Shown piece after piece: positions 4,702-29,746 of a stretch of 44,502 nt of DNA (position 1 is the first letter of the stretch; every line of letters begins with the position of its first letter). The notes beneath the pieces were generated by a model. It saw nothing but the letters and a program-made list of their open reading frames with translations. It ran no database searches and was not told the origin of the DNA. Origin of the DNA: a virus; IMG/VR virus record IMGVR_UViG_3300031669_000061, positions 1 to 44,502 of that record. The stretch is one strand, 5' to 3'. A program made the position numbers and the translations under genes.

Positions 4702-6360
4702 ATGATTACCTACCATGGCGACCATGCTAACGACAAGGAACATATCCTACATCTACTTAGCAATCCTCCAGAAGCTGTAGCAATAGATGTAGAAACTCCT
4801 ACCACAAAGGAGCGTATGCCTCTAGGATTCTCGATTGCTTTCTCTCCAGATGAGTCTATATACTTTCAAACTTATCCAGAGATGCCTAGAGAGCTGGAAC
4901 TGTTAAAGCCTATCCTCTTCAATCCTAATGTATGTAAGATTGCTCACTATGCTCTATTCGATTTGTCAGTACTGCCACTGATACCTCAACTAGTAGGATT
5001 TGATAGGAGCAACTTATTCGATACTAATACAGCAGCAAGATTATTGGGTAAGATTGAGACAGCTCTCACTACTCTAGCATATGAGATAGGTATAGATGTA
5101 GAGGATGTCAAGTCATTCTTAGCTAGACTTGGTGCTAAGACCATGATAGATGCACCAGTATCAGAGGTATGTAACAAGTGTCAGACGGATGCTAGAGCAG
5201 CTTATGCTTTATACTTACAGTACAAGCCACTTATAGAGTCTCAGTACAATGAGTACTTCAAAGTAGAGATGAAGGTTATACCGATACTAGTAGACCTTAG
5301 CATGAGAGGCATAGCTATAGACCAAACAGCCAGAGCAAACATGGAAGCTAAGTTGGAAGATGAGGTAGAGTTCTACCGCAGAGTACTAACAGATGCTGGG
5401 ATAGAGAAGCCAGGAAGTCCACAGCAGGTAGGCTACATACTAGGCAAGAGAGGTAACTTCCTTCCACTCACCAAAAGCAAGAAGCAGCTATCAACTCGTG
5501 AGGCTCAGCTAGAGTTCCTTGACGACCCATTAGCATCAGCAATTCTAGAGTTTAGAGGTAAGAGCAAGTTGCTCAGCACTTACATAAAGCCTATGAGCCA
5601 GCAGGATCGGTTCTACACCGAGTATTACTTGGATACTGTAGTTGGAAGACTCAACAGCAAAAACAGAAACATCCAGAACATTCCTCCTGAGTGCAGACAT
5701 ATCCTACTGCCTGATAATGGTTGCTTTACTAGTGGTGATTTCCAACGAGAACACCTCTACATTTTGGCTATGATGTCTGGAGACAGGGATATGCTTAGCA
5801 TCCTATATGACCCTGACCCAGAAAAGGCTGACATCCATCAGCATACAGCTGACAAGATGAGAGTGTCAAGGAAGTTAGCTAAGACACTCAACTTTGCGGT
5901 TGCTTATGGTGCTACTGCTAAGACCATATCCGAGCAAGCCAAGATCAAAGATGTAAGGTTCTGTGGCAAGTTGCTAGACGACTGGTTCATGACTTACAGG
6001 GATGTAGCAGACTGGGTAACTACTGTGCAAAGGTCATCTATGGCAAGTGGATGGTCTGAACCTACACTATTCGGCAGAAGGATAATTATACCTGAAGAGT
6101 ATAATCAGTGGGGAGCTCTCTATGTAGAAGGCATGAAGAGGAAGGCAGTCAACTATCCTGTACTTGGTAGTGATGGTGAGGTTATCAAGCGAGCAATAAT
6201 ACTATGCAATAGCAAAGGCTTAGGTCCTCCAGTAATGGCTATTACAGTTCATGATAGCATTGACCTAGACGGAGACCATAAGTTTCCAGTAGAGGAGCTA
6301 GAGCAAATACCTGGCTTTAGGATACCTTTCGATACTAAACAAACCTTACGTTGGGAGTAG
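4702..6360 (+). CDS. Family A DNA polymerase with 3'-5' exonuclease domain
   Basis: A 552-residue replicative polymerase of the Pol I type without the 5'-nuclease domain. Exonuclease motifs are AIDVET (Asp29, Glu31), AHYALFDLSVL (Asp87; the usual Asn is Tyr) and TDARAAYAL (Asp163; the usual Tyr four residues earlier is Lys). Polymerase motifs are RNIQNIP (322-328), motif A SGDFQREHL (Asp346), motif B RKLAKTLNFAVAYG (390-403) and motif C TVHDS (Asp518). Motif C normally reads HDE; here Glu is Ser. The protein is somewhat shorter than Klenow fragment. It is the last gene before the convergent boundary. The start has only a weak ribosome site and may be coupled to the deaminase gene. Confidence 0.93.
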   Translation: MITYHGDHANDKEHILHLLSNPPEAVAIDVETPTTKERMPLGFSIAFSPDESIYFQTYPEMPRELELLKPILFNPNVCKIAHYALFDLSVLPLIPQLVGFDRSNLFDTNTAARLLGKIETALTTLAYEIGIDVEDVKSFLARLGAKTMIDAPVSEVCNKCQTDARAAYALYLQYKPLIESQYNEYFKVEMKVIPILVDLSMRGIAIDQTARANMEAKLEDEVEFYRRVLTDAGIEKPGSPQQVGYILGKRGNFLPLTKSKKQLSTREAQLEFLDDPLASAILEFRGKSKLLSTYIKPMSQQDRFYTEYYLDTVVGRLNSKNRNIQNIPPECRHILLPDNGCFTSGDFQREHLYILAMMSGDRDMLSILYDPDPEKADIHQHTADKMRVSRKLAKTLNFAVAYGATAKTISEQAKIKDVRFCGKLLDDWFMTYRDVADWVTTVQRSSMASGWSEPTLFGRRIIIPEEYNQWGALYVEGMKRKAVNYPVLGSDGEVIKRAIILCNSKGLGPPVMAITVHDSIDLDGDHKFPVEELEQIPGFRIPFDTKQTLRWE

Positions 6361-11084: not shown

Positions 11085-12665
11085 TTATATCCTAAACAAC
11101 CACTTGAAAGCTGCACTCATTGCTCCATATATCTTGTCAAGTCCTATTAACTCTATTATAGGCTTGTCCATTATTGGAGTTGGCTTGAGAGATGGCATAG
11201 GTGCAGGTGCAGTATACTTGCCTGATACAAGCGGAGGTTCAGGAAACATAGTCTCAAGCAGTTTGGTCCTCTCCTGTTCCTCAATAATCTTACTTATTAG
11301 CTCTTTTGTTGTTTCTTCAGGAGCTTCCTCTTCTGGTTTCTCAGGTTCTTTGACCTCATCAGGCACTCTTCTCATGGCAGCCTCTGACACATCTACATCA
11401 AAGCCTAGGTCGCCAAAAGCAACTTCCATACGGTAGAGGCCAGGCTTATAGATTCTACGGATGGATGATACTCTTATTGGACTATTTTCATCAGAAGGAT
11501 AAATTATTGGATCTAGCCCAAAGCAAGGGTAACCATAATTTGTTCCTGAGTGAATGACCCATATGTCTACAAAGTCCCAATCTACAGCAGTAAATGTAGT
11601 TTTGGTCTTCATCTGAGCAGTGGTCTTACCTGTTCCACCATCAGATGCAACTTGTCCTGAGTTTTCAACGTCCCAGAAACAGTTAGTAATGGTACCATAG
11701 TTATCTCCGCAAAAGCCACCTACAGACAGGCCACTCATAGCAACAACAGGACCAGATGAATAAGATTTGTCTATTGTTCTACTATTAGTACCTACAAAGC
11801 CTCCTACATACTGGTTACCTATAACAGCACCCATAGCATAACAGTTTAGTATATCAGCATTACTATCTCCGACTAGTCCTCCTACCTCATCAGCATCTGA
11901 TGCAGTTACATTACCAGTTGCGTAAGATTCCTCAATGGTCTTACCTTCAGACAAAGCAGCATAGCCAATAAGTCCCCCAATACCATAGTCTGTTGTTGTA
12001 CTTGTAATAGTGCAAGTACTCCAGCATTTAGAAATGTTACTATAAGCATACCCTGCTAAGCCTCCTACTCCGCCTCCACCTGCCTTACCATCCACTGTAC
12101 CAGTAGTAGAGCAATTCTCAATCTCACTATAGGCGTCACCAACTAATCCTCCAACCAGATAGTCTCCTGTAATATCGACACCTGTTAGTTTTATGTTCTT
12201 TACTATGCCGCCTGGTGTTTCAGCAGTTGGATAGGTAGCAGCGAACAGTCCCACAAAAGCTATATCTGGACGGTTGATATATAGACCAGAGATTGTATAT
12301 TCCTTACCATCAAACTGTCCAGCAAAGGGGTCAGTCTGCCAGTTTGTTCCGATAGGGTCAAAGCCTAAATGGTCACTAACACTGAGAGTAGTTCGAACCC
12401 AATATATACTATTAAAGCTACCGCCAGAGGTATGCGCTGTCTTACAATAGTAATCCTTGCCAGCGTTTGTTACAAAGTCGTTAACAATATACTCAGTAGC
12501 TGCTGCCCATGCACCTCTGTCAACTAATATATTCCAGCCTACTGTTCCGATAGCATCTATATCATTAGCAAGTTCATAGTAAGCTGTAAGATCATTCTCT
12601 ACAGCTTGAAGATCACTTACATTACTTATAATATAGGGGTCTTCTTGTGTTCCACTACCTGTCAT
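11085..12665 (-). CDS. GLUG-repeat virion protein, adhesin-like
   Basis: A 526-residue protein. From about residue 125 to 340 it carries six or so GLUG-type repeats (VGGLVGDAYSEIENCSTTG, VGGLAGYAYSNISKCWSTC, IGGLIGYAALSE, VGGLVGDSNADILNCYAMG, VGGFVGTNSRTIDKSYSSG, VGGFCGDNYGTITNCFWD). Each forms one turn of a beta-solenoid, as in bacterial surface adhesins. Before them is a FAGQFDGKEYTISGL segment typical of GLUG proteins. The tail is Pro/Glu-rich, then a helix ending in FKWLFRI. A role in host attachment or depolymerisation is inferred from its place beside tail fibres. The ATG at 12665 has GAGG nine bases upstream; a TTG seven codons earlier is less likely. Confidence 0.75.
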   Translation of the reverse strand: MTGSGTQEDPYIISNVSDLQAVENDLTAYYELANDIDAIGTVGWNILVDRGAWAAATEYIVNDFVTNAGKDYYCKTAHTSGGSFNSIYWVRTTLSVSDHLGFDPIGTNWQTDPFAGQFDGKEYTISGLYINRPDIAFVGLFAATYPTAETPGGIVKNIKLTGVDITGDYLVGGLVGDAYSEIENCSTTGTVDGKAGGGGVGGLAGYAYSNISKCWSTCTITSTTTDYGIGGLIGYAALSEGKTIEESYATGNVTASDADEVGGLVGDSNADILNCYAMGAVIGNQYVGGFVGTNSRTIDKSYSSGPVVAMSGLSVGGFCGDNYGTITNCFWDVENSGQVASDGGTGKTTAQMKTKTTFTAVDWDFVDIWVIHSGTNYGYPCFGLDPIIYPSDENSPIRVSSIRRIYKPGLYRMEVAFGDLGFDVDVSEAAMRRVPDEVKEPEKPEEEAPEETTKELISKIIEEQERTKLLETMFPEPPLVSGKYTAPAPMPSLKPTPIMDKPIIELIGLDKIYGAMSAAFKWLFRI

Positions 12666-12666
12666 T

Positions 12667-13716
12667 TTATAAGCCTCTACTATCAACTATTGATAGTTTG
12701 TCATACATCTCAACTTTGCCATTATGAGGAGCAACCATCATGCCTGCCATCTGCTCAAACTTAGCTCGGGCTAGTAGTGCTGATGCTCTAGCATTTACAT
12801 CTAACTGTTGAGTCAGTGGGCCTGACAGTACAATCCTGATAACATCAGCATAGCCAGCTATCTCATCTGCATCTTCAGCTTCACCAACTATGTAACTTGC
12901 CCAGAGACCATCTGCACCCTCATTCCCATATACTAAGAAGTGGTTAGGTATTAGCACATTCCTACGCTCTATGTATTCATAGAAGTAGGGAGCTGATCCC
13001 GAGTAGAATGTCATGTCAGCTGCATCAGCTTCTTGCGGATACTTAATCTCCCACTTCAGGTCATGTAAAGGCTTCAGGTAGCTAGCAGTCATATTCAATA
13101 GCCTATAGAGTATAGATGCTGCATACTCAAAAGGTTGAGCATTGATGTCGAACTGAGGTTGGAGTGAGTTGATGATACCATCATCTTCTACTAAAGCATT
13201 TAAAGTCATAGCTGGATCTATCTCACCAAGAATAATCCCAATGATAGTATAGATGGTATCAGTAGTATAGCTTGCAGTAAAGAGTGGTGGACTGCCTACA
13301 CGGATGAGTGATTCTCTCAGCTTGCTCCACATACCTTCTAACTCCAGCAATTCCCACAGTTTGCCACCAGCAGATACAGTTTGCTGATGCTTCACCCAGA
13401 GTCTAGGAGGAGCTGGCTCATTAGTACCATCACCTAGATATTCTTTGCCAGTAGTAGTTACATAGCCCCAGCCTATCTCTATCCAGTAGCCTTTCAGTAA
13501 TGGTATATCTTTATCTTTATTGCGAAAGATGATAGTAGCGTAGTCATTGTAAGGCTCTTCAACATGGTCTATCATCAGGATACGATTACCGTAAGTTGCA
13601 CTGTCGGATGATAGGTCAACAGTGGTAGCGTTGTGCTTGAATAGCAGCTTGAAGTATGGAGATTTAGAAGCCGCATTCTGAGCGGCTAGGTAGGTTGCCG
13701 ATACTGACCTAGCCAT
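12667..13716 (-). CDS. Virion structural protein, tail/baseplate type
   Basis: The 349-residue product begins MARSVSATYLAAQNAASKSP and has a beta-rich first half (ATIIFRNKDKDIPLLKGYWI, IEIGWGYVTTTGKEYL, PRLWVKHQQTV) and a mixed second half. The pattern of short strands around a GYWIEIGWGY core recalls phage tail-hub or baseplate proteins that fold as repeated barrels, but the match is not decisive. It starts behind TATGGAGACAGT and ends overlapping the leader of the GLUG gene. Location between accessory head genes and fibre genes supports a tail role. Confidence 0.6.
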   Translation of the reverse strand: MARSVSATYLAAQNAASKSPYFKLLFKHNATTVDLSSDSATYGNRILMIDHVEEPYNDYATIIFRNKDKDIPLLKGYWIEIGWGYVTTTGKEYLGDGTNEPAPPRLWVKHQQTVSAGGKLWELLELEGMWSKLRESLIRVGSPPLFTASYTTDTIYTIIGIILGEIDPAMTLNALVEDDGIINSLQPQFDINAQPFEYAASILYRLLNMTASYLKPLHDLKWEIKYPQEADAADMTFYSGSAPYFYEYIERRNVLIPNHFLVYGNEGADGLWASYIVGEAEDADEIAGYADVIRIVLSGPLTQQLDVNARASALLARAKFEQMAGMMVAPHNGKVEMYDKLSIVDSRGL

Positions 13717-15296: not shown

Positions 15297-16358
15297 CTAT
15301 ATGGTTATTGCCAAGTCGGCGATGTCGGCGATCCTGCTCAGGCATAGCGAGGAGCCTAGCAGCACAGCTCCATAGTTCAGCATCCTGAGACCACCAGCAT
15401 CCCAGTTCTCAAGCTCAGGGAATCTCACCAGTTTGTAAAAGTCCCCAAAGCCTGAAGTTCCACCGAAGGCATAGGTTAGTCCGGGCTCCTGGTTCAGCAC
15501 ATTACCGTGCTTGACACCGAAGATGGAATATCCCTTCTCATTTACATAGAGTGTTCTGACATTAGCAGCAACGGCAGTCAGACCAGTATCCTGTTGCTCA
15601 CCCACTAGGAAGTCAGTCCTTATCATAGGCACCGCATCCCAGAAGAGTACTCTCTTGCCCAGCTCATTGTAGCCCAGAGTCAGGAAGCTCATAGTGCCAT
15701 GTGTCTGAGTAGTTCCGGACACAGTATACAGGAAACCCTTCTCCTGGTAGGCAGCATCAATCTGGCGGATAATCTCAAAGGGCGCCCAGATCTCATCCAC
15801 TCCCATCTTCATAGCGTCTATCATGATTCTGAGGTTTGCCAGGCTAAGTCCAAGACCTCCCTGGTCTATATTGAGATCGCCACTGGTCTGCCTTGCCCAG
15901 GCATGGACACCATCGAACTGCTTGGCAGAGGCATTTACATCTGCATAGATGAGACGAGCTCCGATCTTCCTCTTGAGAGCCTTCTCACATTCCAGAAGCA
16001 ACCTTGCCTCGTAGTTGTTGTAGGTGCCATAGATGCCCTCAACGAAGTGGTCAAGCTTTCTCTGGATGTAGCTCCTCTTCAGAGCAGATTCCTTCTCTTC
16101 GTAGTTTACATCCTCAGTCCAGGTGAGTCCTTCACCAATGTTTACCTCGGCTACAGCAGCCTCAAGAGCAGCAACATTGGCAGGTATCTCTCTCAACCAC
16201 TCAATTTTCAGTCCAGTACCGGATGCTTGGCCAACTGTTACCCTCTCTATAGGGTTGTTTCTTTTGATATCTTCTTCAAAGACACCAGGTATCTTTGTTG
16301 ACTGCGTTAGCTTTTGGAGCGCAGCCAAGTTTGCCCAATGTCCACCTGAATCAGTCAT
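15297..16358 (-). CDS. Major capsid protein (HK97-like fold, inferred)
   Basis: The 353-residue product lies immediately after the scaffold gene, the standard place for the major capsid protein. It has the expected size and pattern: an N-terminal helical arm, a long charged helix (NYEEKESALKRSYIQRKLDH), then alpha/beta sequence with MGVDEIWAPFEIIRQI, LGKRVLFWDAVPMIRTDF (the 'capsid protein finds its own name' pattern of metal-rich HK97 relatives) and a beta-rich C-terminus. It starts behind ATAAGGAGTAATTACT. The call rests on position and overall pattern, not on a single catalytic motif. Confidence 0.8.
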   Translation of the reverse strand: MTDSGGHWANLAALQKLTQSTKIPGVFEEDIKRNNPIERVTVGQASGTGLKIEWLREIPANVAALEAAVAEVNIGEGLTWTEDVNYEEKESALKRSYIQRKLDHFVEGIYGTYNNYEARLLLECEKALKRKIGARLIYADVNASAKQFDGVHAWARQTSGDLNIDQGGLGLSLANLRIMIDAMKMGVDEIWAPFEIIRQIDAAYQEKGFLYTVSGTTQTHGTMSFLTLGYNELGKRVLFWDAVPMIRTDFLVGEQQDTGLTAVAANVRTLYVNEKGYSIFGVKHGNVLNQEPGLTYAFGGTSGFGDFYKLVRFPELENWDAGGLRMLNYGAVLLGSSLCLSRIADIADLAITI

Positions 16359-17123: not shown

Positions 17124-20100
17124 TTATTTCGCTTCTCCTATCATTGCTGGGATGAGGAATTGCTTTCGCAGTCCTTCATATATTTCCTTAGCTTCAGCAG
17201 ACATGAACTTGTCTGTAGTACCGAAGAAGTTGAGCCAAGCATCTAGCTCAGAGTCAAGTAGACGTAGACGCTGTCTAGCTTCTCGTAGTCTGCTCTGATA
17301 TCCTGAGATAAGTTTGCCATCAGGTCCCATGACTTCCAGTAGCTGTTCTCGCTCATCTCCTCTAGCTACCTCAAATCTGCGGATGGTTTTGATCTGCTCA
17401 TCAGTATATTCTTTCAGTACTATGCTTCTGACGTTACGGTAGGGTCGGGCATAGGTTCTGCTAAACTCCCAGTATAGTATCTCCATAGGAGTCCAGTCAT
17501 TGTGGATTCTCTGTAGTAAGCGCTCTCCATGTGCAGGACTAAGTGTTTCTAGCAGGATATCTATATAGGCATAGTATGTATCAAAGTCCAACTCCATACG
17601 GTCAGATTCCCAGTTGTATTTGAGTTCAGGCTTCAGCTCGAAGTAGTAGTAGAGCAGCTCTTGGTCAGGAGTTTGGGTAGGAGTAACTATACCACGTTCC
17701 TCTAGCAGTATAGCCCTTTCCTCAAATGACTTAGGCACATCCTTGTAGGCAGGAGATTCACCAAGTATACGAGCTGCCTCACTCAGGCCGCCTTGGATAT
17801 TGCTACGCATACTTATCCATTGGCTGGGACCTATGATGCCTTCAACCAGTTGTCGGTTGACTTCTACTATGCTAGGCTGAGTTAGCTCACCGTCCTCATA
17901 TCTTCCATGATATCTGGCTTCAGTGAATACCTTATCCAGTTCTTGGTAGTAGTCGCTAATCTTTATGTCTAACGCTTGCCAGCTAGAAGGATACATAGGA
18001 GTAATTACGCCCTGATAGCGACGATAGGATTCCCACTGGTAGAGTAATGCCTGCTGCTGAACATCCAGATGGAAGTAATCACTGAACCGTTTGCCTGTTA
18101 CAGGATATGTCTTATCTATCCATTCCTGAGTTGATACAGGCACTCCAGTTGCTTCCTCTATAGCTAATCTCATTTCCTTACGGATTTGAGTGAACTCAGC
18201 AGGGCGGATTCTGAATAGTCCTGTCTGATTCATAAGGATTCCTTTGATGCCATCTACTTTGTTGACTGCTTTGAGCCAGAGTTTCTCTTCCTCTTCAGTT
18301 AGTACTATGTTCTGCTGCTTCTTCTTCCATATCTCATCAGCATCATAGCCCATACCACCGAGAGTTAGCATAGTTAGATAATCTCGGAAGCGGTCAGGAT
18401 AGACAACTTCTAGCACTGCTCCTATATGTTCAGGAGATAATGCTCGCAAGGCACTGAGTCCTGTCTTGACCCAGGCTGGAGCTAATTGTCCTAATTGAGG
18501 CTGCTTGCCACCAGCACCAAACATTACAATAGGTAGCATAACATGGATGCCTGGGAAGAATCCTGCTCTACCAATATAATCTAGAAACTCTATGCCTGGA
18601 GCAACATCATGGTATTCTGGAAAGTCTCGGAGATAGAAGCTTCTAAGTCCGCCCATCCAGACAGTGCCTCTGAGAGGATTTACCTGGAGGTCAGTGCCAG
18701 GTATAGGCATATAGCCCTGGTCAGAATTACCAGTAGGAAGTATACTACCCTCAGCCTCCATTATCCAAGTTCCAGAGGCTACAGAAGGACACCATACCTC
18801 ACCATCATACTGACAATCCTTGACTCTTCTCCAAGACTTATCCCCTCCTCTCAATGATAGATGCACAGAGTAACAAGTCCTATTATTACCTTTCTCTATT
18901 GATACTCGATAGCCTAAGAAATGGCTTAGCATAGTAAAAGCATCTAAGACTGGACCTGGCTGTTGACCCCAAGAGTGCCATGCTAATCTACCCTTAGAGT
19001 TACCCTCAGCACTCATCATAGATATCCACATAGCCTCAGCAGATTCCTTAGATAGATGAGACACTAGCTCTGGTAGCCCATCCTTACCTAAGTATACATC
19101 AGCAATCCTATCCATAGTATCTTGAGATACATAGAATACATACAACCCATCAGGTCTAATACTATATTTATCTACCAAATCCTTAATAATCTTGACGAAG
19201 CTAGGCTTCTTTTGAGTAATCTGGCCATATAGTTTTCCACCTCTAGTATGCCCTATGTATCCATCAGTCACTAACCATCCAAGTATAGCAGCATCGTAAG
19301 GAGACAGAGCACTCATACTAGGAAAGTCATCATGAGGAGTAATAGTAGGAATACTATAGTACTGATCAGTAATATTCTTAGCCTGCATCATAGATAGCTC
19401 TCCAAGCTTAGACCTTACAATCCAAGTATGCTCTGAAGTACACAAGATATGCTTATTGCCATAACTAGGTAGACTGAGCATTGGTCTATTAGACCGAGCA
19501 GGAAATATATTAACTGTCTTTATAGGCTCCCAATGAGTAGTAAGGACCTTAGGATTACATACTAGTATATCCTCACCTACTTTAAGCTCATGACAACTAC
19601 GCCACCCATTCCTAGTTAAAGCTTTGTAAGATGTAGGCACACAGTAATTCATATATCTGGCTACATTGGATAGAGCACCTGGTGTTCTCAGAGCAGTTCT
19701 AGGTAGCCACTTCCATCGAAAAAGTTCATAAGTGTTTCCTGTTGGTAGAATACAGCCATTGAAGTTAGCAAACCAAGTCCCATTAGCAGTTACAGGACAC
19801 CATACCTTACCAGTATAGTGCTCATGGCTCATTCGCCTACACTGCTTAGACTGATAAGGTTGTCTATTGTTTATAAAGTATATTTTGTCAAGACCATCAC
19901 TGCGCTTACTTACAGTTATGGCTTTACCTAACAGTATAGATAGCATCTGAAATGCTTCTGATACAGGTCCTGGCTGTTGGATCCAAACATCTACAGCAGT
20001 CCCATTATAAGCAGAACCAAAGCTACCTTCTCCTAGTAGCATAGATCTCCACATACTTTCAGCAGCATCTCTAGACAGCTGAGGTACTATAGCAGGAAGG

Positions 20101-23100
20101 TTATCTTTACTAGAATATACTTTCATTATCTCAGCTGTGTCATCTACACTGACTCTAATTACCATATTGTCTAGATCATTAAGTTTGCTTCTAGGATAAG
20201 CCTTAGTGCCAGTAGCAGCCTCTATCTCATCAATATAGTTATAACGACTTTGATAGATAATGAAGTAAGGTCGCTGAGTTTTAGGAGTGTTTAGGTAGCC
20301 TTCTGACACTACCCATCCTAGTATAGCAGCTAGTCTAGGAGACAATATAGACTCAGTAGGAAACTGATGAGGTAGTGCTCTAGGTATCATATCAGAGGCA
20401 TCAGTTAGTTCATAGCCTCTCTTAATCCTAGGCTGGTCACCATGACTGTTGATAACTAACCATCTATGATTAGGAGTAAACTTAATGTCCTTACCCTTAG
20501 CAGGTATGACCATCAAGTTATCATCGTAGTCAAACTCAGCTATCTTCTGTAGATGCTGCCACTCAGTTACTAGAGTGTTAGGATTAGTAGTCAGAACATC
20601 TTCTCCAATAGTTAACTGAGAATAGTGTTTCCAGCCAGTCTTAGTGAGTATCTTAGTATCTTCAGGAACGCACCAGAAGGGGAATAGTGCACGCATGGAT
20701 TCGTCTATGATGTTAGCATTGTCATAGGTTGGGTAGGCTAAGCTATGCATCTCACGAGCCTTGGTCATGGCTGATTCTTTCTTAGCCCACCAGTCAGGAG
20801 TACCGCCAACAGCAGCTACCTTAGCTGGAGCAATCTTAGCATAGTAGGTATCAAAGAATGATCTAACCTTATCTGGAATAGGTTTGCCAGTCATATAATC
20901 AGCAAACAGCTCACTCAGACCTTCCTCATATAAGGGTTTCTTCACTCCCCTCTTAATAGCAATTCCAGCTGCTGCCCCAAACTTATCTAGCATAGTATAA
21001 TCGCCACGCTTGATAGCATCAGATACTATACCATGCATGAACTCATGATAGAATTGTGCATCTGTGAAGTCTTTGCTTCTGACAATCATGGTTCCAGTAT
21101 CAGGCATAAACCTAGCTATAGCTTCTAGATCTGGATTTATCTCAAATCCTTTCAGAATAGCTTGTGCATCACTAGGCATACTAGATACAAGATCAGTTAA
21201 CCGTGTCTTAGTAGAAGCAGACACTCTTCCCTTCCAAGTAATTTTGAGAGCAGCAGGCTTGGCAGCCACTGTCTTAAATGCTAATGTCTCTCCTGCATCA
21301 TCTGCTATAGTATTGAAGTACTGTCTCCACTTGATAACATCAGATTCAGGAATCTTAACAGATGAGTAGAGCCTATGGAGTTCCTGTCTAATCTCTTCCA
21401 TCTGTAATACTGTAGGATGGTCAGGAGTCAGTATGCTAGGATTTATGCCTAGAGTCCTCCACATCTGGTCATACACTTCGCCTATAGCTTCATCAGTGAA
21501 GCCTATCTGCTCAGCTGTCTTGCCAAGCTTAGCAGCATAGGCAGAAGCATAATCCTTAGTATGGATGATGAAGTCTTCTCTAGGTCGGATAGTGATATGA
21601 TGCTGGACTCTGGTGAGTCCTCGGTATAGATCATCTCCAGTTACTCCATACAGGTAAGCTAGATGATTTGGAGTCAGATCTCCTACCACATCTGGTACGA
21701 AGTCAGCAACATACACAGACTTATCTACAGATGTTAGGAAGTTACGACTAGTGCTCAGTCTTGTAGTCTTAAGCTTTCTAGCTACAGTATCAAACTCTTC
21801 CCAGATGATAGACTTATCAGCTCGCTGCTTAGCCCAGAATGGAGCATTACGGAGTTTCTTAGGAGTTCTAGGAATGATAGCTTCTATGTCAGCTAGCTTG
21901 GTGCGAGTGGCTAGTACATTCTGAAACTCTAGACGGCTGATAGAGTCAAGGTCAGCCAGACGAGCTAGTTGAACATCATTCAGTCCAGCTAACTTAGCAT
22001 TCTTCATTAACTGATTCATCATTTTTGTTAGTTCAGTCTCTGATGTATCCATAAACTCTGCTAGCATCTTAGCTGAACCAACCTCAAAGTCGTCAAAGTC
22101 AGATGGGAGAAGTTGAGCTTTCCTGAGTTCAGTTATCTTTCTGAAGTCATGGATCCTCTCACCTATACTATCTGCTTGAGCAGTTATACTCTGCATATCA
22201 CCGAGGAACTCCTGTAAGTTCTTGGGAGGATTAGCTATAAAAGCATCTGTTTCTAGCTTCATAGCATCTATCTGATTTGCTAGGCTAGCTATGTTCAGCT
22301 CTCGTTCTGATGCTACCCAGGCAGCCATTCTGTCATCTATGCTGCCAACACCTTTCTCAAACATTCTACCATCCAGCACCTCATCTCTAATCCCTGTCTT
22401 AGTTATAGTATGGACATCAGTCATGTTATCCATTACTTGATTGATTTTCTTGCTAACCTGTCTTAACTGGAAAGTCGTAACATCCATGTCAGCAAGTAGT
22501 CTAAGACTATCAGGACCTCCGCCAATGAGTTCGAGAGTTATCTCTCGTCTTATGTCTGCAGCATCCTTCTTAGTTATGCTAGCTATATCATCCAGCATGG
22601 ATCTTGTTTTCACTTCCACTATCTCATGTATAGCCTTCATCTCGGTAGGAGCTATATCTTCTAGAGACTTCAGGAAGTGCACCTGCACATCATATGCAGT
22701 TATATCAGCAGTAAGCCTAGCCCACATATCGTACCAGTCTGTAGCGTCGCCTATAAAGAACTTCTGATTGCCTATGGTTAGTGTTTTACCAACCATCTTA
22801 CCACCGAAGAATGGAATCTTCTCAGGCACTCTTACATTCCTACTTACGAATGGTATTTTGCCGCCTCTGAATACAGCAGTATGGCCAGTCTTAGGGTCAA
22901 CTATAGCCTGGGTCAGTCTCACCTGCCCCTTCTCAAACATCGTGAGTTCATAAGGAGCATTGGATAATCCTCTAGCTAATCTGTTAGTTTCAGCAACTCC
23001 TCCGTATGCTTTAGGAAACATTATCTCTCCGCCACCAGCAAAGCTTCTTCCCATATTCTCAGCATAATTGTAAGGACCAAAGTTGGTGAAGAGTAGTTGC

Positions 23101-25277
23101 CATCTTGCCATAGGCATAACTACTCTACGCTCTAGTGCTACTAGCTGAGCTGAGTATAGTACTTTGTCTGCTACTCTACTATGCCATGATGCTGCTCTGC
23201 CAGCTTGCTGCATATGCTGGGTAAGAGGACTATGAAGATTACCATAGCGAGTTTCTTCTAGATGATTGTAGATATTCTTAACTACAGCATCGAACTTATC
23301 GCCCTTCACAGCGTTCATAGCCTTGCTACCAACAGTCTCCTTGAGCTTAGCTATCTTGGTGGCTAGAGTGCTGACTGATTGTTCAGTAGCCTCTACTCCC
23401 ATATCACCAAGCATTTTGCCTGCTGTTATTCTCTCGCCTTGTCCACTAAACGCATCAAGCAGACCACTATTAAATCTAGCTAGACGACCAGTATCGAAGG
23501 TTATATCGCCTACTATATCCTTCACAAACTTGGCTGCTGATGCTCCATCTAAATAGTTGAACTCTATCAGGTCTGCACCAGCCTTAACTAACGGATTGTT
23601 ACCTTCCATAGGAGTATCTAGTACTGCTCTCACACAGCGGCTGACAGTATCCATAGCATCCTGGCCAGTCAGTCCCTTTCCAAGAGTATTCCTTGATGAA
23701 CGGAAGGTTCTGCCAACTACTGAGTAGAAGTCCATCACTCCCTTCTTAGCAAAGTTTCTACTCATCTGAGTAAATGTAGCAGGTATAGTATATCCAGCAC
23801 CAGTTAGCCAGAATGCACTCTTAATAGGAGCAGCTACTACATGCATAGCGCCCTTAAATACCATGTCTGCACCAGAAGTATATCCTTGCTCAAATGCTAT
23901 CATTAGAGTGCCAACTCTAGTTCCTGCCCATTTGAGTCCTCTAGGCAAGGCAGCTGTAGTTAGCTTTCTGCCGACAGCAACTGCTCCTCCCCATCCTATC
24001 CAGTTCAGCGGATCATAGGCTGAGTCTAATATAGCCTTCTTCCACCAAGGAGCATCCCACTCGTTGAAGGCTTTAGCATAAGATGACCAGGCACTCTCAC
24101 CCATGCTTCTGTAGAACTCATAATGCTTTGTCAGTTCCTTATCTGTATCAGTCTCAAATGCAGCAAATAAGGCAGCGCCACTAACTGCACCTATTATACC
24201 ACCTACTATTGCTCCAACTCCTATTCCTATGGGACCTCCAAAAGCGCCTATTGTTGCTCCTGCTATGCCACCACCTACAATTCCTAGTGGAGCACCATGA
24301 GCAGCACCTGCTACTGGAGCTGGCAGATGCATTGTAAGAGCAGCTGATATAGGTCTGCTGATAGCATCCCACCACTTCTGCAGCAGCTCTAATGTAGCCA
24401 ACATAGGCTGAGTAACTATCATCAAAGTATATTCATCAGGAGTTAGTTCAGGAGTCTCAGCTAGTATTGTTCCTGCTCTAATCAGGCCCATTCTAGCAGA
24501 CTCTAACTCCCATTCTCTAGCCCGTTCAGATAGCCAATCACGCTGACTCTGCAACTCCTCATCAGACAAGTCTAGCTCACTGAGCAGGTTCCTGACATCT
24601 TCCTCAGTCATACCAGCAGGCAATGCGGCTACACTAAAAGCAAAGGATTTAGCTATCTCATCTACTGTTAGATGATGGACGCCTCTGAGTTCTAGCTTTG
24701 GAGCAGTCAGGATCTCATTTAGTACCTTAGACTGAGCATCCATGATGTCCCCAGTATAACCTTCAGGGAGCACATTAGACAGATGTGATAACTTCCCAAA
24801 TGTCTCATTCAGCCATGCAGTATCAGCATCTGTTAAGTCGAGACCAGGCGCTATGAACTTGAGCACATCTGCTGGATTCTGTAGTTCATATTGAGGGTCA
24901 GACATATAGATAGGCAGAACCTGCATAACTTCTGCCTTCCACTCAGCCGTCTGAAACTGCTGAGCAATAAGATCAAAATCAGCTTGTGCCCTTTCCATAG
25001 CTTCTTGTGTTACAAACTCTTTACCAAAGGGCAATTCAGCCTTAGGCACTGGAAGAAGAAACTGACCCCAGAACCCTGTAGGAGCCTCAGTTGTGGGTAC
25101 TAACCTAGATAGATCCTTTTCAGCTTTCTGAAGCTTATAATAAAGTTGGGACAGCTCAATCCCAATCTGCTCAAACTCCTGAACGAATCCAGTATAGTAT
25201 TCAGGTACTTCTACTGGAGGCGGAAGCTCAGGAACACCTTCCTGCCCATTTGTTAGTTCTATATTAGGTCCTGCCAT
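17124..25277 (-). CDS. Giant virion protein with zincin motif, interrupted by two inteins
   Basis: The precursor has 2717 residues; removing both inteins leaves about 2098. Residues 322-374 form a glycine-rich hydrophobic stretch (GIVGGGIAGATIGAF and so on) like a membrane-inserting glycine zipper. Long helical regions follow. A zinc metallopeptidase motif HEFMH starts at residue 1411 (21047-21033) with an EGLSELFADYM helix after it that could give the third ligand. Inteins occupy residues 1536-1848 and 1879-2184. The C-terminal 530 residues are helical and aromatic. Between portal and scaffold in a phage with no tape measure, it may be an internal or DNA-ejection protein with a peptidase; this is inference. 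The ATG at 25277 is behind TTGGAGGATAAT; a TTG four codons earlier is less likely. Confidence 0.75.
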   Translation of the reverse strand: MAGPNIELTNGQEGVPELPPPVEVPEYYTGFVQEFEQIGIELSQLYYKLQKAEKDLSRLVPTTEAPTGFWGQFLLPVPKAELPFGKEFVTQEAMERAQADFDLIAQQFQTAEWKAEVMQVLPIYMSDPQYELQNPADVLKFIAPGLDLTDADTAWLNETFGKLSHLSNVLPEGYTGDIMDAQSKVLNEILTAPKLELRGVHHLTVDEIAKSFAFSVAALPAGMTEEDVRNLLSELDLSDEELQSQRDWLSERAREWELESARMGLIRAGTILAETPELTPDEYTLMIVTQPMLATLELLQKWWDAISRPISAALTMHLPAPVAGAAHGAPLGIVGGGIAGATIGAFGGPIGIGVGAIVGGIIGAVSGAALFAAFETDTDKELTKHYEFYRSMGESAWSSYAKAFNEWDAPWWKKAILDSAYDPLNWIGWGGAVAVGRKLTTAALPRGLKWAGTRVGTLMIAFEQGYTSGADMVFKGAMHVVAAPIKSAFWLTGAGYTIPATFTQMSRNFAKKGVMDFYSVVGRTFRSSRNTLGKGLTGQDAMDTVSRCVRAVLDTPMEGNNPLVKAGADLIEFNYLDGASAAKFVKDIVGDITFDTGRLARFNSGLLDAFSGQGERITAGKMLGDMGVEATEQSVSTLATKIAKLKETVGSKAMNAVKGDKFDAVVKNIYNHLEETRYGNLHSPLTQHMQQAGRAASWHSRVADKVLYSAQLVALERRVVMPMARWQLLFTNFGPYNYAENMGRSFAGGGEIMFPKAYGGVAETNRLARGLSNAPYELTMFEKGQVRLTQAIVDPKTGHTAVFRGGKIPFVSRNVRVPEKIPFFGGKMVGKTLTIGNQKFFIGDATDWYDMWARLTADITAYDVQVHFLKSLEDIAPTEMKAIHEIVEVKTRSMLDDIASITKKDAADIRREITLELIGGGPDSLRLLADMDVTTFQLRQVSKKINQVMDNMTDVHTITKTGIRDEVLDGRMFEKGVGSIDDRMAAWVASERELNIASLANQIDAMKLETDAFIANPPKNLQEFLGDMQSITAQADSIGERIHDFRKITELRKAQLLPSDFDDFEVGSAKMLAEFMDTSETELTKMMNQLMKNAKLAGLNDVQLARLADLDSISRLEFQNVLATRTKLADIEAIIPRTPKKLRNAPFWAKQRADKSIIWEEFDTVARKLKTTRLSTSRNFLTSVDKSVYVADFVPDVVGDLTPNHLAYLYGVTGDDLYRGLTRVQHHITIRPREDFIIHTKDYASAYAAKLGKTAEQIGFTDEAIGEVYDQMWRTLGINPSILTPDHPTVLQMEEIRQELHRLYSSVKIPESDVIKWRQYFNTIADDAGETLAFKTVAAKPAALKITWKGRVSASTKTRLTDLVSSMPSDAQAILKGFEINPDLEAIARFMPDTGTMIVRSKDFTDAQFYHEFMHGIVSDAIKRGDYTMLDKFGAAAGIAIKRGVKKPLYEEGLSELFADYMTGKPIPDKVRSFFDTYYAKIAPAKVAAVGGTPDWWAKKESAMTKAREMHSLAYPTYDNANIIDESMRALFPFWCVPEDTKILTKTGWKHYSQLTIGEDVLTTNPNTLVTEWQHLQKIAEFDYDDNLMVIPAKGKDIKFTPNHRWLVINSHGDQPRIKRGYELTDASDMIPRALPHQFPTESILSPRLAAILGWVVSEGYLNTPKTQRPYFIIYQSRYNYIDEIEAATGTKAYPRSKLNDLDNMVIRVSVDDTAEIMKVYSSKDNLPAIVPQLSRDAAESMWRSMLLGEGSFGSAYNGTAVDVWIQQPGPVSEAFQMLSILLGKAITVSKRSDGLDKIYFINNRQPYQSKQCRRMSHEHYTGKVWCPVTANGTWFANFNGCILPTGNTYELFRWKWLPRTALRTPGALSNVARYMNYCVPTSYKALTRNGWRSCHELKVGEDILVCNPKVLTTHWEPIKTVNIFPARSNRPMLSLPSYGNKHILCTSEHTWIVRSKLGELSMMQAKNITDQYYSIPTITPHDDFPSMSALSPYDAAILGWLVTDGYIGHTRGGKLYGQITQKKPSFVKIIKDLVDKYSIRPDGLYVFYVSQDTMDRIADVYLGKDGLPELVSHLSKESAEAMWISMMSAEGNSKGRLAWHSWGQQPGPVLDAFTMLSHFLGYRVSIEKGNNRTCYSVHLSLRGGDKSWRRVKDCQYDGEVWCPSVASGTWIMEAEGSILPTGNSDQGYMPIPGTDLQVNPLRGTVWMGGLRSFYLRDFPEYHDVAPGIEFLDYIGRAGFFPGIHVMLPIVMFGAGGKQPQLGQLAPAWVKTGLSALRALSPEHIGAVLEVVYPDRFRDYLTMLTLGGMGYDADEIWKKKQQNIVLTEEEEKLWLKAVNKVDGIKGILMNQTGLFRIRPAEFTQIRKEMRLAIEEATGVPVSTQEWIDKTYPVTGKRFSDYFHLDVQQQALLYQWESYRRYQGVITPMYPSSWQALDIKISDYYQELDKVFTEARYHGRYEDGELTQPSIVEVNRQLVEGIIGPSQWISMRSNIQGGLSEAARILGESPAYKDVPKSFEERAILLEERGIVTPTQTPDQELLYYYFELKPELKYNWESDRMELDFDTYYAYIDILLETLSPAHGERLLQRIHNDWTPMEILYWEFSRTYARPYRNVRSIVLKEYTDEQIKTIRRFEVARGDEREQLLEVMGPDGKLISGYQSRLREARQRLRLLDSELDAWLNFFGTTDKFMSAEAKEIYEGLRKQFLIPAMIGEAK
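18726..19643 (-). mobile_element. Intein 2 with LAGLIDADG homing endonuclease
   Basis: A 306-residue intein from Cys1 (19643) to the final Asn (18726). Block A is CVPTSYKALTRNGW, block B has CTSEHTWIV, and the C-terminal blocks are VWCPSVASGTWIMEAEG and SILPTGN. The downstream nucleophile is Ser (SDQGYMP). Two LAGLIDADG-type motifs are present, AAILGWLVTDGYIG and AMWISMMSAEGNS, both with their acidic residue. The residue before the last Asn is Gly instead of the usual His. It is clearly related to intein 1 (shared QQPGPV and LSxExAExMW segments). Intact splice motifs suggest active protein splicing. Confidence 0.9.
19734..20672 (-). mobile_element. Intein 1 with LAGLIDADG homing endonuclease
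   Basis: A 313-residue intein from Cys1 (20672) to the final Asn (19734), 125 residues after the HEFMH motif of its host protein. Block A is CVPEDTKILTKTGW, block B is FTPNHRWLV, and the end is VWCPVTANGTWFANFNG followed by CILPTGN. The next extein residue is Thr, a usable nucleophile. LAGLIDADG motifs are AAILGWVVSEGYL and SMWRSMLLGEGSFG. The penultimate residue is Gly rather than His. Only 30 extein residues (19733-19644) separate it from intein 2. Confidence 0.9.
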
Positions 25278-25278
25278 A

Positions 25279-27045
25279 TTATCCTCCAAGCTCAGATGCT
25301 CTCATACGCTGACCACTAGGTAACTGTGGCGATGCTTCAGGTCTGCCAAGACCAGTTGTAGGTCTAGCAGCTTGTGGTTCAGGCTGTGCTGGTTGCAGCA
25401 TCTGTATAGCCATGTCTGCTGCCATCTCATATAGCTTAGCTCCTTCTGAATCTCCTATCTTAGATAGGTAAGCTGCCTGCTGTCTATAGTACTGAATCAG
25501 AGCAATCACGCTGTTGCTAGGATGAAGTTCAGCTTTGTCTGCTCTAACCTGAGCCCTCTCTTGCAGAGTATCTCCAATATCAGGGAACAGCTTTCCTATT
25601 ACATAGCTGTAGCTCAATACAAAGTCAGGATTCAGCATCCTAGCATTGGTAGCTCTCTGCACTAGGTCGCCAGGAATCTCCACCTCATACTCAGCAGATA
25701 CCATGACATTATCTGGCAGTTTGCTCGGATACTTCCAACCATAAGGCCTAATGCCTCTTTCCCTTATATCTGCCAGATCATCATTGTCCATGTCTGATAG
25801 TGCATCTATGATTGCTTGATGGAAAGGCTTCATTACTTGATTAGCTGATGCAGCTATTTGACTCATAACATAGGAGCTTACTTGACCAGCAAGCGAACCG
25901 TGCATAGCCCAGCTGACTCCACCTCTCTGCATCATAGCTTCAAGGTCAAGCTGAGTACTTCTGAGCTCTAGAGGTATAGGCGGAGTGCCTATGAACTCAA
26001 CAGCATCGTCAGGCCCACCACGAAAGATTGCTCCTCGCCTGAACACATCTTGAGGCTGCACTATAGCCTTACCACTCCTGCTCTTCTCAAATATCCTAGG
26101 CTGAGCAGTGTCTCTTAGTAGCTGTAGACTAAAGCTCCACCACTTATTCCAAGTGCGATAGATATTCTCATTGGTGGCTATGATGGCTTGACCTATCTCA
26201 GCCTTCCAACGCTCAGCAGTTATTTCCTGAGTCTGAAGCTTCAGAGTAGATGAGTATGTTGGCATTACTCCTTCTGACAAGCTGCCCATATCAGGTAGTC
26301 CGCCAACTGGAGCTACATAGATAGGAATCCTCTTAAACCTTGTTTGCCCGAACTTTACTAAGTCTCTACCTATGACTATAGCATTCCAGATGGCTAGGGT
26401 GAAAGGAAACTCATCTGCTACCTCAGTCCACCAGTAGTCATAAACAGGCACATCTGTTCCAGCTGATGCCCTCCACTGTGGGTAAGGACTATTGAAAGCC
26501 CAGTTATTCTTCTTGGCCATATTGATAGCTTGCTTAGAACTAATCTTGTAGATGCGAGCTACCTCATCTAATCCTAGCATTCCATCCCACATAGGATATA
26601 CTTCCATAGGATTCAGAGGCTCCTTGTAAGTTCTGCTACCATCATCAGAGTTGATGCTGAACATAGCATACCAGCCAGTAGCTAACATAAAGCCTATGAA
26701 AGTTGCCATCATGCTCTGTCTAGGATTAGAACGGCGGAAGTTATTCTTAGCATCTTTCCAGCTAACCTTGAAGTAGCGGCTAACTTCTGCTACTGCACTA
26801 GATACTTCAAGGTCAGCTATGTCATAGTCCTTGACTCTGTGAGGTATGTTGGTGTCAAGGAGATGAGATACTAGATTGTATAGAGCTCTCGGGTCATTAC
26901 CTACAAATGATTCCATCTTGTCTGTCTTGAGCTCATCAATCATCTCAATCATCCTGTACCACCGCTTCATAGCATCATTTCTGGGCGCCCAGTAAGTTCG
27001 TAGCTCTTTGCAACGACTGATTACTATTTCAGCTTTATCTGCCAT
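25279..27045 (-). CDS. Portal protein
   Basis: A 588-residue protein two genes downstream of the large terminase region and directly upstream of the giant gene. The sequence has the portal pattern: a helical N-terminus, NPMEVYPMWDG wing strand, clip-like beta region, and a long helical C-terminal part (LRSTQLDLEAMMQRGGVSWA, SSYVMSQIAASANQVMKPFH) resembling the stem and crown of short-tailed phage portals. It ends with a Pro/Gln-rich tail. Portals form the dodecameric DNA entry ring at one capsid vertex. It starts behind AAGGCGGTGTTTC and overlaps the upstream 78-residue gene by 11 bases. Confidence 0.8.
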   Translation of the reverse strand: MADKAEIVISRCKELRTYWAPRNDAMKRWYRMIEMIDELKTDKMESFVGNDPRALYNLVSHLLDTNIPHRVKDYDIADLEVSSAVAEVSRYFKVSWKDAKNNFRRSNPRQSMMATFIGFMLATGWYAMFSINSDDGSRTYKEPLNPMEVYPMWDGMLGLDEVARIYKISSKQAINMAKKNNWAFNSPYPQWRASAGTDVPVYDYWWTEVADEFPFTLAIWNAIVIGRDLVKFGQTRFKRIPIYVAPVGGLPDMGSLSEGVMPTYSSTLKLQTQEITAERWKAEIGQAIIATNENIYRTWNKWWSFSLQLLRDTAQPRIFEKSRSGKAIVQPQDVFRRGAIFRGGPDDAVEFIGTPPIPLELRSTQLDLEAMMQRGGVSWAMHGSLAGQVSSYVMSQIAASANQVMKPFHQAIIDALSDMDNDDLADIRERGIRPYGWKYPSKLPDNVMVSAEYEVEIPGDLVQRATNARMLNPDFVLSYSYVIGKLFPDIGDTLQERAQVRADKAELHPSNSVIALIQYYRQQAAYLSKIGDSEGAKLYEMAADMAIQMLQPAQPEPQAARPTTGLGRPEASPQLPSGQRMRASELGG

Positions 27046-28075: not shown

Positions 28076-29746
28076 TTATTTACCCCAAGAGTCATCCCAG
28101 CCTGCCGAGCCAACATAACCTCTCTGTATTGGTTGAGCGCTCCTACAAACTATAGCTATTGCTCCACAGTCATGATGATCATCTGCACCTACTACTATTA
28201 TACCACTCTTGACCGAGTTATTTCGGCGGATGTTCTTGCACTGGCTCCAGAATCTGATATCCTGACAATCCATATCGTCCATGTGTCTATTGACTTCTGT
28301 TATCATGTAAGGCTTAGTAGACAGGTTAGTCTGCCAGCCTACAGATCTGACTAGCTTACCTGTTCTGACATCCTCTCGCCAGTAGAGGTCAGGATAATCC
28401 CTAAGATGGCTAACAATATCTAGATTGTCTTCTGGTGCTATTACTCCATGATTGTAATAGTGAGCTACTACTTTCATATACTCAGCCATCTCCCACTCAT
28501 CATAGAAGCCAGCTAATGTAGCACAGTGCTGCATGATGGGAGGGATCTCTTTGCCATCCTTATCCTTATAGCCATCAGCAAAAGTCCACACCTGCCCTAC
28601 AGATTCAGATATCTTACCTTTGCCTGGGTCAATAGGAATGATGTAGCCTTTGCCTTCCTCCACATCATGCCAGATGTCTAGTGTAGCTGAGGTGCTATTC
28701 TTAACATTTATTATGTTCTTTTGAATAGGAGCTGGAATACACTGTCTAACCTTATCAGATATGATGTCAGAACTATAGGCTTGGTCTCCAGCTACCAAGA
28801 AACAAGTCTCGTCGTCCTCAGGAAACTCCTGCTCCATCAATAAAACTGTATCTCCACTTCTGCGTAGGCTGGCCATCTCAGCTCTCTTGTATCTCCTCCA
28901 TCTGAGCTTAGCCATTGCCTCATGCTCTTCGAAGCCATAGGATGCTAAGAACAGTCTCATCAGCAGAACCTCACTAGATTGTAGATTAGGCAGTGGATCC
29001 ACATTATCTCCATCAAGACAGAATGGATCCTCAGGATACATTACATACTCAGGATGTATGAACCAAGGATAGAAGTGATGCCGGTAAACTGACTTAGCTA
29101 CTACTGTTCCTTCCTTAGCTGCCCTATATATCTCACAGTGAGGATTATCCTCTCCGTTAGCTGTAGACTGTATTCTGATCTTAGTACCAAGTTTTGTAGG
29201 TACTCGCTGAACTGCTGAGCTAAATACTAATTCATGAGTACCTATTAGCCAGAATCCATACTCATCTAGCAGCAGATTATGTATTGCTTCTCCCCTACCA
29301 AGTGTATAACTTCTAGATGTAAAGATATACATGACAGAGTAGAAATTAGTATCCTTATCCTCCCATGTTAGTTCTTCAGCACCCTTATGCTCCAGCTTAG
29401 GAATTGATGGAATCTTTCTGGATAAGAACTGGTGAAATCGCTTGGCTTTCAGAATTAGCCGCTTAGCACTAGTCTCATCATAGCTGATGATAACTGAAAC
29501 AGTTCCACTGATAGTGATATTGTCTAGATAGAAGTCAGCTAGATGATAGGATGTGGCTCCTACCTGAGCAGGCTTTACATAGACATCTCTAGGCCCTGAT
29601 GTCTCCAGCATATCAAGTTGAATAGGATTGAGAATGAAAGGCACAAGCTTACGCTCCTTATTCTCTATCTGGAGCATTGTCTCCATCATAAGTCTACGAT
29701 TGGAGAATAAAGCTCTTAAGGCATCATCATGAGTTGCAACTGCCAT
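28076..29746 (-). CDS. Terminase large subunit (TerL)
   Basis: A 556-residue packaging motor and nuclease. The ATPase part has a deviant Walker A, VYVKPAQVGATS (55-66), with the lysine upstream of the glycine loop as in lambda gpA, and Walker B HNLLLDEYGF (Asp161, Glu162). The C-terminal RNase H-like nuclease has IPIDPGKGK (Asp373), IAPEDNLDI (Glu439) and a final DDHHDCGAIAI acidic motif. Length and motif order are normal for TerL. It cuts concatemers and drives DNA into proheads through the portal. It follows a small membrane protein gene and has a weak ribosome site (AAGAAGT), so translation may be coupled. Confidence 0.92.
   Translation of the reverse strand: MAVATHDDALRALFSNRRLMMETMLQIENKERKLVPFILNPIQLDMLETSGPRDVYVKPAQVGATSYHLADFYLDNITISGTVSVIISYDETSAKRLILKAKRFHQFLSRKIPSIPKLEHKGAEELTWEDKDTNFYSVMYIFTSRSYTLGRGEAIHNLLLDEYGFWLIGTHELVFSSAVQRVPTKLGTKIRIQSTANGEDNPHCEIYRAAKEGTVVAKSVYRHHFYPWFIHPEYVMYPEDPFCLDGDNVDPLPNLQSSEVLLMRLFLASYGFEEHEAMAKLRWRRYKRAEMASLRRSGDTVLLMEQEFPEDDETCFLVAGDQAYSSDIISDKVRQCIPAPIQKNIINVKNSTSATLDIWHDVEEGKGYIIPIDPGKGKISESVGQVWTFADGYKDKDGKEIPPIMQHCATLAGFYDEWEMAEYMKVVAHYYNHGVIAPEDNLDIVSHLRDYPDLYWREDVRTGKLVRSVGWQTNLSTKPYMITEVNRHMDDMDCQDIRFWSQCKNIRRNNSVKSGIIVVGADDHHDCGAIAIVCRSAQPIQRGYVGSAGWDDSWGK

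Follow-up and report, generated by a model that had tools for sequence, protein, structure and literature searches.

Two mobile LAGLIDADG inteins of a widespread phage family, marked by Cys1, a Cys at block F:4 and a Gly-Asn end, very probably occupy neighbouring homing sites in one giant gene of the window, the whole 44,502-nucleotide stretch of viral DNA analysed here. The window is a tailed-phage contig, TerL being taken as context. The host gene lies between the TerL and capsid genes of this 44.5-kb contig, and going by gene position alone its product would be a virion protein. Stop codons are absent between 25289 and 17124 on the minus strand, and double splicing is predicted to yield a mature protein of 2102 aa, about 236 kDa. 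An HEFMH motif that may be a zincin is found 125 residues ahead of site 1; HExxH conservation was not found near this position in the sampled relatives. Comparison of the extein with named phages gave no match, and comparison with genomes of 84,980 species gave no match that could be confirmed. The host gene and its context are as follows:

17124..25289, minus strand: host gene, 2721-aa ORF with a TTG start as listed, carrying both inteins
28076..29746, minus strand: terminase large subunit (TerL), tailed-phage context
15297..16358, minus strand: major capsid protein, context
21033..21047, minus strand: N-extein motif HEFMH, zincin-like and lineage-specific

On the minus strand, the interval 18726-20672 begins with the first base of intein 1 and ends with the last base of intein 2, and an extein spacer of exactly 30 residues separates the two. 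The original prediction placed two inteins here, which holds, and its coordinates and spacer were exact. The junctions (marked by slashes) read FPFW/CVPEDT...ILPTGN/TYEL for intein 1 and RYMNY/CVPTSY...ILPTGN/SDQG for intein 2, and the spacer TYELFRWKWLPRTALRTPGALSNVARYMNY aligns ungapped with intein-free alleles. Cys1, TxxH (block B), a terminal Asn and a Thr or Ser nucleophile at +1 are present in both inteins, as are the two LAGLIDADG motifs that had been described in each. The alignment of the two inteins to each other, which had been proposed as a check, is full-length, with 36% identity and a BLASTP E value of 1e-60, far beyond chance.

19734..20672, minus strand: intein 1 (site 1), 313 aa, 35.4 kDa, W/C...GN/T
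19644..19733, minus strand: extein spacer
18726..19643, minus strand: intein 2 (site 2), 306 aa, 34.4 kDa, Y/C...GN/S

Structural models of both inteins were obtained with AlphaFold (pLDDT 92.8 for intein 1 and 90.6 for intein 2), and they match intein-homing-endonuclease structures over their whole length. Fold matches in the PDB were TliVMA, PI-PfuI, PI-SceI and I-DmoI for intein 1 and TliVMA, PI-PfuI and I-DmoI for intein 2, and both models show a predicted HINT fold. Profile searches matched PI-PkoII in the splicing part and in the endonuclease part. With Pfam PF14890, intein 1 scored below the cut-off and intein 2 was unmatched; family libraries barely detect the two inteins, so routine annotation would overlook them. 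When the complete record was searched with a profile for a third intein, only these two came up.

All four occupancy states have been sequenced for this gene. Intein-free alleles with exact in-frame junctions at both sites exist in many related viral contigs, as the original prediction had proposed to look for, and most relatives carry full-length genes without either segment. Alleles with an intein at site 1 only were found in 9 contigs (L002, L004, L005, L013, L016, L018, L019, L154, and L160) and at site 2 only in L112, while both sites are occupied in the window alone, 1 of 69 alleles. On the extein tree, the 11 occupied site-1 alleles require 11 changes and the 2 site-2 alleles require 2 changes. 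A scan with intein 2 as single query returned nothing, and L112 surfaced only through the extein search; a scan for more site-2 inteins with both known members as queries recovered L112 and, at greater distance, L177 from another gene, and no others.

The histories of inteins and exteins disagree, as homing would predict. Intein identity far exceeds extein identity between the window and L004 (58% versus 28%) and between the window and L018 (58% versus 32%), and falls below it between the window and L154 (44% versus 68%) and between L016 and L160 (38% versus 62%). Intein 1 shares 81% identity with its site-1 counterpart in another virus; intein 2 shares 52% with the site-2 intein of a third virus and only 36% with intein 1. 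The paralogy of the two inteins is therefore real but old, and the window's two inteins were probably acquired separately. In a tree that also includes 29 other viral inteins, those of site 1 and site 2 group in a clade of their own (100/99). Site-2 inteins, sampled from the window and one other virus, are nested within the site-1 lineage, and a single site-1 clade is rejected (AU p=0.026). The most plausible reading is that the site-1 lineage gave rise to the site-2 lineage.

The two inteins might instead have been acquired independently from outside, being similar merely through membership in the same broad phage intein family. This is unlikely, though it is consistent with the fact that each window intein is more closely related to inteins of other viruses than to the one beside it, and with the behaviour of the L177 intein from a different giant ORF. 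When added to the tree, L177 joins the clade close to both sites (98/81), and the node pairing site 1 with site 2 drops to 87/62; because of this value, an origin of intein 2 inside the gene is likely, not firm. Against outside acquisition stand the exclusive clade itself and the level of identity, which is mostly 20-28% for outside inteins as opposed to 32-41%, setting L160 aside, when site-2 inteins are compared with those of site 1. The L177 extein showed no significant similarity to the host gene (hhalign probability 1.3). The L177 intein is inserted at a similar PFY/TF motif.

Each intein has two LAGLIDADG helices with a terminal acid, as listed below:

20295..20333, minus strand: intein 1 motif 1, LAAILGWVVSEGY, acidic residue Glu124
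20022..20063, minus strand: intein 1 motif 2, AESMWRSMLLGEGS, acidic residue Glu215
19257..19295, minus strand: intein 2 motif 1, DAAILGWLVTDGY, Asp127
18999..19037, minus strand: intein 2 motif 2, EAMWISMMSAEGN, Glu213

The endonuclease of intein 1 might be weakened, because it has Glu/Glu where most relatives, like intein 2, have Asp/Glu; in L160 the second acid is replaced by Lys. These substitutions would fit degenerate, immobile inteins with dead endonucleases, retained solely through splicing. Such a state is quite improbable, since dN/dS is about 0.13-0.18 in splicing and endonuclease domains alike (0.17 and 0.16, respectively, between the window and L013), indicating purifying selection on both. 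The patchy occupancy and discordant histories also argue against it. Moreover, Glu at this LAGLIDADG position is functional in I-DmoI, and the structure of an I-DmoI E117A mutant is among the PDB fold matches listed for intein 1.

A recent duplication of intein 1 into site 2 within the window's own lineage is suggested by the adjacency of the inteins and by common stretches such as QQPGPV. It is nevertheless very improbable: the identity is only 36%, another virus holds a site-2-only allele, and in the tree the two inteins split before the window's copies diverged from their counterparts in L112, L154, and L019. The original prediction, that one intein arose from the other and homed into a nearby site, thus holds for the paralogy and for derivation of site 2 from site 1, but not for a recent local copy, given the 36% identity and the closer kin elsewhere. 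That both segments are fixed virion-protein domains and not mobile inteins, as the open ORF and weak library matches could suggest, is scarcely conceivable, since the two segments are missing, with exact junctions, from most relatives, their histories depart from that of the gene, and the full set of splicing motifs is present together with a whole endonuclease fold; the original prediction had named fixed domains in related phages, with no intein-free alleles, as one refutation, and intein-free alleles exist.

In one relative, L003, the site-1 intein lies nine bases (three codons) farther downstream; the old +1 position still holds Asn, and the new +1 residue is Cys. This shifted insertion is new beyond the earlier finding. 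A pattern scan of viral contigs for a second shift of this type recovered L003 alone, apart from a chance match in L175, which was rejected because its reading frame runs into stops. Compared with its nearest empty relative, L131, similarity is lower beside the L003 intein than farther off (Fisher p=0.002); a co-conversion footprint was rejected, as empty-versus-empty controls dip likewise in the same stretch. The first 20 residues of the L003 intein match inteins 1 and 2 equally and the rest is mostly similar to intein 1; whether it is recombinant in origin is undecided.

The Trp-Cys-Thr (WCT) triplet of class 3 inteins (B:12, F:4, G:5) is present in both window inteins and in 23 of 47 family rows:

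20460..20462, minus strand: intein 1, single-codon feature listed with the WCT residues
19797..19799, minus strand: intein 1 Cys292, block F:4, C of the triplet
19740..19742, minus strand: intein 1 Thr311, block G:5, T of the triplet, then Gly312-Asn313
19422..19424, minus strand: intein 2 Trp74, block B:12
18789..18791, minus strand: intein 2 Cys285, block F:4
18732..18734, minus strand: intein 2 Thr304, block G:5, then Gly305-Asn306

All 23 WCT rows have a nucleophile at position 1 (Cys1 or Ser1), where class 3 has none. Cys1, a possible first nucleophile as in class 1, is found in both window inteins, and they are not filed as class 3 because of it. The co-occurrence of Cys1 and the full triplet in both inteins is new beyond the earlier finding. 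The Gly-Asn C-terminus had been pointed out as departing from His-Asn. The ending itself is correct, but it is no oddity: it is found in 46 of 47 members, a hallmark of the family, and a phage intein with a penultimate Gly splices well (PMC5050341).

From these data we infer a course of splicing, DNA cleavage and acquisition. The acyl shift at the N-terminal junction would proceed via Cys1 or Cys-F:4, and transfer to Thr+1 or Ser+1, Asn cyclisation and ligation would then give the 2102-residue protein. Each endonuclease would cut its own site in alleles that lack the intein, and repair would copy the intein in. The site-2 lineage would have arisen by ancient transposition from the site-1 lineage inside this gene family, after which both lineages may have spread separately among viruses and the window's virus received both.

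The founding of a new insertion site by an intein, as opposed to a return to its old one, is rarely caught in the act. The four occupancy states, together with the three-codon-shifted allele of a close relative, offer natural sequences for testing how targets are recognised, how neighbours compete and how far a +1 nucleophile is required, and this gene is a good natural case for the spread of parasitic elements within one gene. Cys1 with the full class 3 triplet is relevant to the debate over how class 3 inteins arose and to the question of which cysteine starts splicing. More speculatively, and with considerable doubt, it is possible that three modes of movement are represented (homing; ancient transposition 30 residues off; and the nine-base shift in L003, using Cys+1 where Asn at +1 is unable to splice) and that Cys1/WCT inteins are present-day representatives of the phage progenitor proposed for class 3.

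Phage inteins had been described in the original prediction as usual in replication or terminase genes, which is too narrow, as precedents exist in portal, TerL and tape-measure genes, and in PORT (PMC5050341). Inteins in structural or packaging genes include those of Gordonia phage Woes (portal), GordTnk2 (TerL) and Mcklovin (tape measure), and mycobacteriophage inteins are found in TerL, PORT, NT and RDF (PMC5050341). These class 1 inteins share Cys1, TxxH, Cys F:4 and a LAGLIDADG domain with the window's, and most end in Gly-Asn with Thr or Ser at +1; however, they are 20-27% identical to the window's and occupy other host genes, with one family intein per named gene. Haloarchaeal MCM-a/MCM-d (PMC10643990) likewise has two independently homing inteins with double, single and empty alleles, but in an archaeal helicase gene, whereas the window's sites are 30 residues apart, its inteins are paralogous and the double allele occurs in 1 of 69. 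Mycobacteriophage TerL1-a/TerL1-b (PMC5050341), one residue apart, are likewise insertion points that almost coincide within a phage gene; those are two site groups in the P-loop, whereas in L003 an intein of the same lineage sits three codons away from its position in close relatives. Class 3 Msm and Mch DnaB-1 (PMC5222942, PMC7664689) share Trp B:12, Cys F:4, Thr G:5, His B:10 and Asn G:7 with the window inteins, the Cys-F:4 to Asn spacing of 21 is the same in Msm DnaB-1, and class 3 inteins also have Ser or Thr at +1. Unlike class 3, the window inteins additionally carry Cys1 and Thr B:7, which are class 1 features, and have Gly, not His, at G:6.

Two inteins interrupt one giant gene on the minus strand of the window, a complete IMG/VR virus record of 44,502 bases:

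17124-25289, minus strand: ORF of 2721 codons (giant gene)
20672-19734, minus strand: intein 1 (site 1), 313 aa, 35.4 kDa, inside this ORF
19643-18726, minus strand: intein 2 (site 2), 306 aa, 34.4 kDa, inside this ORF

As originally predicted, the pair spans exactly 18726-20672, and the inserts are separated by exactly 30 residues. Cys at position 1, TxxH in block B, and two LAGLIDADG-type motifs can be seen in each, and both end in Gly-Asn, with Thr (intein 1) or Ser (intein 2) as the next residue. Their identity is 36% over a full-length alignment (E=1e-60), and the protein without them is computed at 2102 residues, about 236 kDa. AlphaFold models from 24-row alignments were confident (pLDDT 92.8 for intein 1 and 90.6 for intein 2); on model comparison, the closest solved structures over the whole length are intein-homing-endonucleases (the TliVMA and PhoVMA inteins, PI-PfuI, PI-PkoII, and PI-SceI), with I-DmoI matching the endonuclease part alone. 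PI-PkoII was also matched by sequence profile in both the splicing and the endonuclease parts. In Pfam and NCBIfam, intein 1 fell below the cut-offs and intein 2 had no score; therefore, ordinary annotation would miss both.

The first three of the following genes mark the virus as a tailed phage:

28076-29746, minus strand: TerL
15297-16358, minus strand: major capsid protein
4702-6360: family A DNA polymerase
2411-3235, plus strand: ORF with a weak HNH endonuclease match
40627-41457, plus strand: ORF with a weak HNH endonuclease match
11085-12686, minus strand: tail-fibre-like protein bearing GLUG repeats plus a carbohydrate-binding module

The giant gene is located between those for TerL and the capsid protein and adjoins an unassigned 588-aa ORF at the usual portal position; this location suggests that its product is a virion protein, to which a weak tape-measure match in a hydrophobic stretch adds little. 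The zincin motif attributed to this protein, HEFMH, is present in the window but was not found at the corresponding place in the relatives examined. The giant gene had no match in named phages, and a search of genomes from 84,980 species indicated no host.

When 2.9 million viral contigs were queried with the inteins and the C-extein (the part after the inteins), about 70 distinct alleles of the giant gene emerged. Most carry neither insert and are continuous across both sites, as in L006 (FPFW-NYELFRWKW at site 1, RYVEY-TDSGY at site 2), and these intein-free alleles, sought as a check on the original prediction, refute the reading of the inserts as fixed domains. Nine contigs (L002, L004, L005, L013, L016, L018, L019, L154, and L160) carry an intein at the usual point of site 1 and none at site 2. 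In L112, site 1 is uninterrupted and the single intein, at site 2, shares 52% identity with intein 2 and 36% with intein 1. The window alone carries both. The allelic evidence for the paired inteins is unusually complete. A further intein-like element was seen in a separate 895-aa ORF in the record of L101 (G009:C1:16083-17066, minus strand), a virus whose own giant gene lacks an intein at either site.

Mapped onto a tree of 69 C-exteins, occupancy of site 1 (11 alleles, including the window and the shifted allele L003) required 11 changes of state, and that of site 2 (two alleles) required two. Intein and extein similarities are discordant in both directions, as repeated horizontal homing predicts: compared with the window, inteins and exteins are respectively 58% and 28% identical in L004, 58% and 32% in L018, and 44% and 68% in L154, with 38% and 62% between L016 and L160. 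The dN/dS of intein 1 against L013, L002, and L003 is 0.13-0.18, with similar values in the splicing and endonuclease domains, so endonuclease activity is likely under selection, even though the LAGLIDADG acidic positions are Glu/Glu in intein 1 versus Asp/Glu in most relatives.

In a 42-row intein tree, the site-1 and site-2 inteins of the giant gene form one clade (100/99), in which L160 (site 1) is outermost, followed by the site-2 pair and then the other site-1 inteins. A single site-1 clade was rejected (AU p=0.026, for a group chosen after seeing the tree), from which it follows that site 1 was the source and site 2 the recipient. Adding L177, an intein of another giant phage ORF, placed it within this clade and left 87/62 support for the node joining site 1 and site 2; an in-gene origin of the site-2 inteins is therefore probable rather than certain. 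That intein (L177 4001-4891) is 33% identical to intein 2 and lies at PFY|TF, a site resembling site 1, with extein homology to the giant gene not significant. The duplication is old on sequence comparison, since intein 1 shares 81% identity with the site-1 intein of L013, and intein 2 is closest to that of L112. The proposal that one intein arose from the other and entered a nearby site agrees with the tree in paralogy, but the split is old, and the window genome most likely gained its two inteins separately, from two established homing lineages.

Both inteins combine Cys1 and Thr B:7, features of class 1, with the class-3 positions Trp B:12, Cys F:4, Thr G:5, and His B:10, and share with Msm DnaB-1 a Cys-to-Asn spacing of 21 residues (PMC5222942). 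Among 47 family inteins, 46 begin with Cys and one with Ser, and Cys F:4 is universal (47/47); the full Trp-Cys-Thr triplet occurs in 23 of the 47, all 23 with a position-1 nucleophile. Because class 3 is defined by the absence of that nucleophile (PMC3196547, PMC7891396), the window inteins are not filed there. The mixture may be incidental, since Cys ranks second in frequency among the residues that inteins have at F:4 (PMC4031507). Natural inteins with both feature sets would make it possible to test directly which cysteine starts splicing. Tori and Perler reportedly looked at a few inteins with mixed motifs in 2011. The Gly-Asn end, correctly noted, is a family feature, as it occurs in 46 of 47 rows and a Gly-to-His change at the penultimate position slowed splicing of a phage RDF intein (PMC5050341). 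Two site-1 inteins are atypical. That of L160 (261-1178) has Ser rather than Cys at position 1, and Lys replaces its second LAGLIDADG acid, so the endonuclease has probably lost activity while splicing may persist. That of L154 (6975-7910) ends in LLSKN (Ser G:5, Lys G:6) and has Val at B:7.

The L003 intein is of site-1 type, 74% identical to intein 1 and adjoining it in the tree. It interrupts the extein between FPFWNYE and CFRWRW, nine bases downstream from the usual point; no extein residue is duplicated or lost. Its extein is close to that of the intein-free L131 (branches 0.018 and 0.019; 90% downstream DNA identity). In intein-free alleles the site-1 +1 residue is mostly Asn in the window's subgroup and mostly Thr in the wider family; alleles with an intein at the usual site have Thr. 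Splicing chemistry requires Cys, Ser, or Thr at +1, so an intein inserted before Asn could not finish splicing. L003 retains Asn in the N-extein, and its +1 residue is a new Cys at a position occupied by Leu, Ile, or Met in relatives; from this one contig, it is reasonable to suggest that the shift may restore a +1 nucleophile. A pattern scan of the viral contigs found no second shift of this type. Another viral gene (motif LVTHHAF(E/D)YEW(Y/I)GA(T)GKIHN) offers a further natural series of shifts, with same-family inteins at closely spaced registers after HHAF, after HHAFEY, and after YGA (L027, L032, L051, L053, L054, L059, L065, L068, and L075). The mycobacteriophage TerL1-a and -b sites are one residue apart, so near-coincident sites are not unheard of (PMC5050341).

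In Gordonia phages, inteins of the window's family interrupt portal, TerL, and tape-measure genes, and portal inteins are reported in mycobacteriophages (PMC5050341); therefore, intein-bearing structural genes are not new. The haloarchaeal MCM gene likewise has several inteins, with single and double alleles as in the giant gene, and inteins at adjacent sites there hinder one another's homing (PMC10643990). Beyond this, the giant gene adds a spacing of only 30 residues between sites, occupants that are paralogous, and a register shift.
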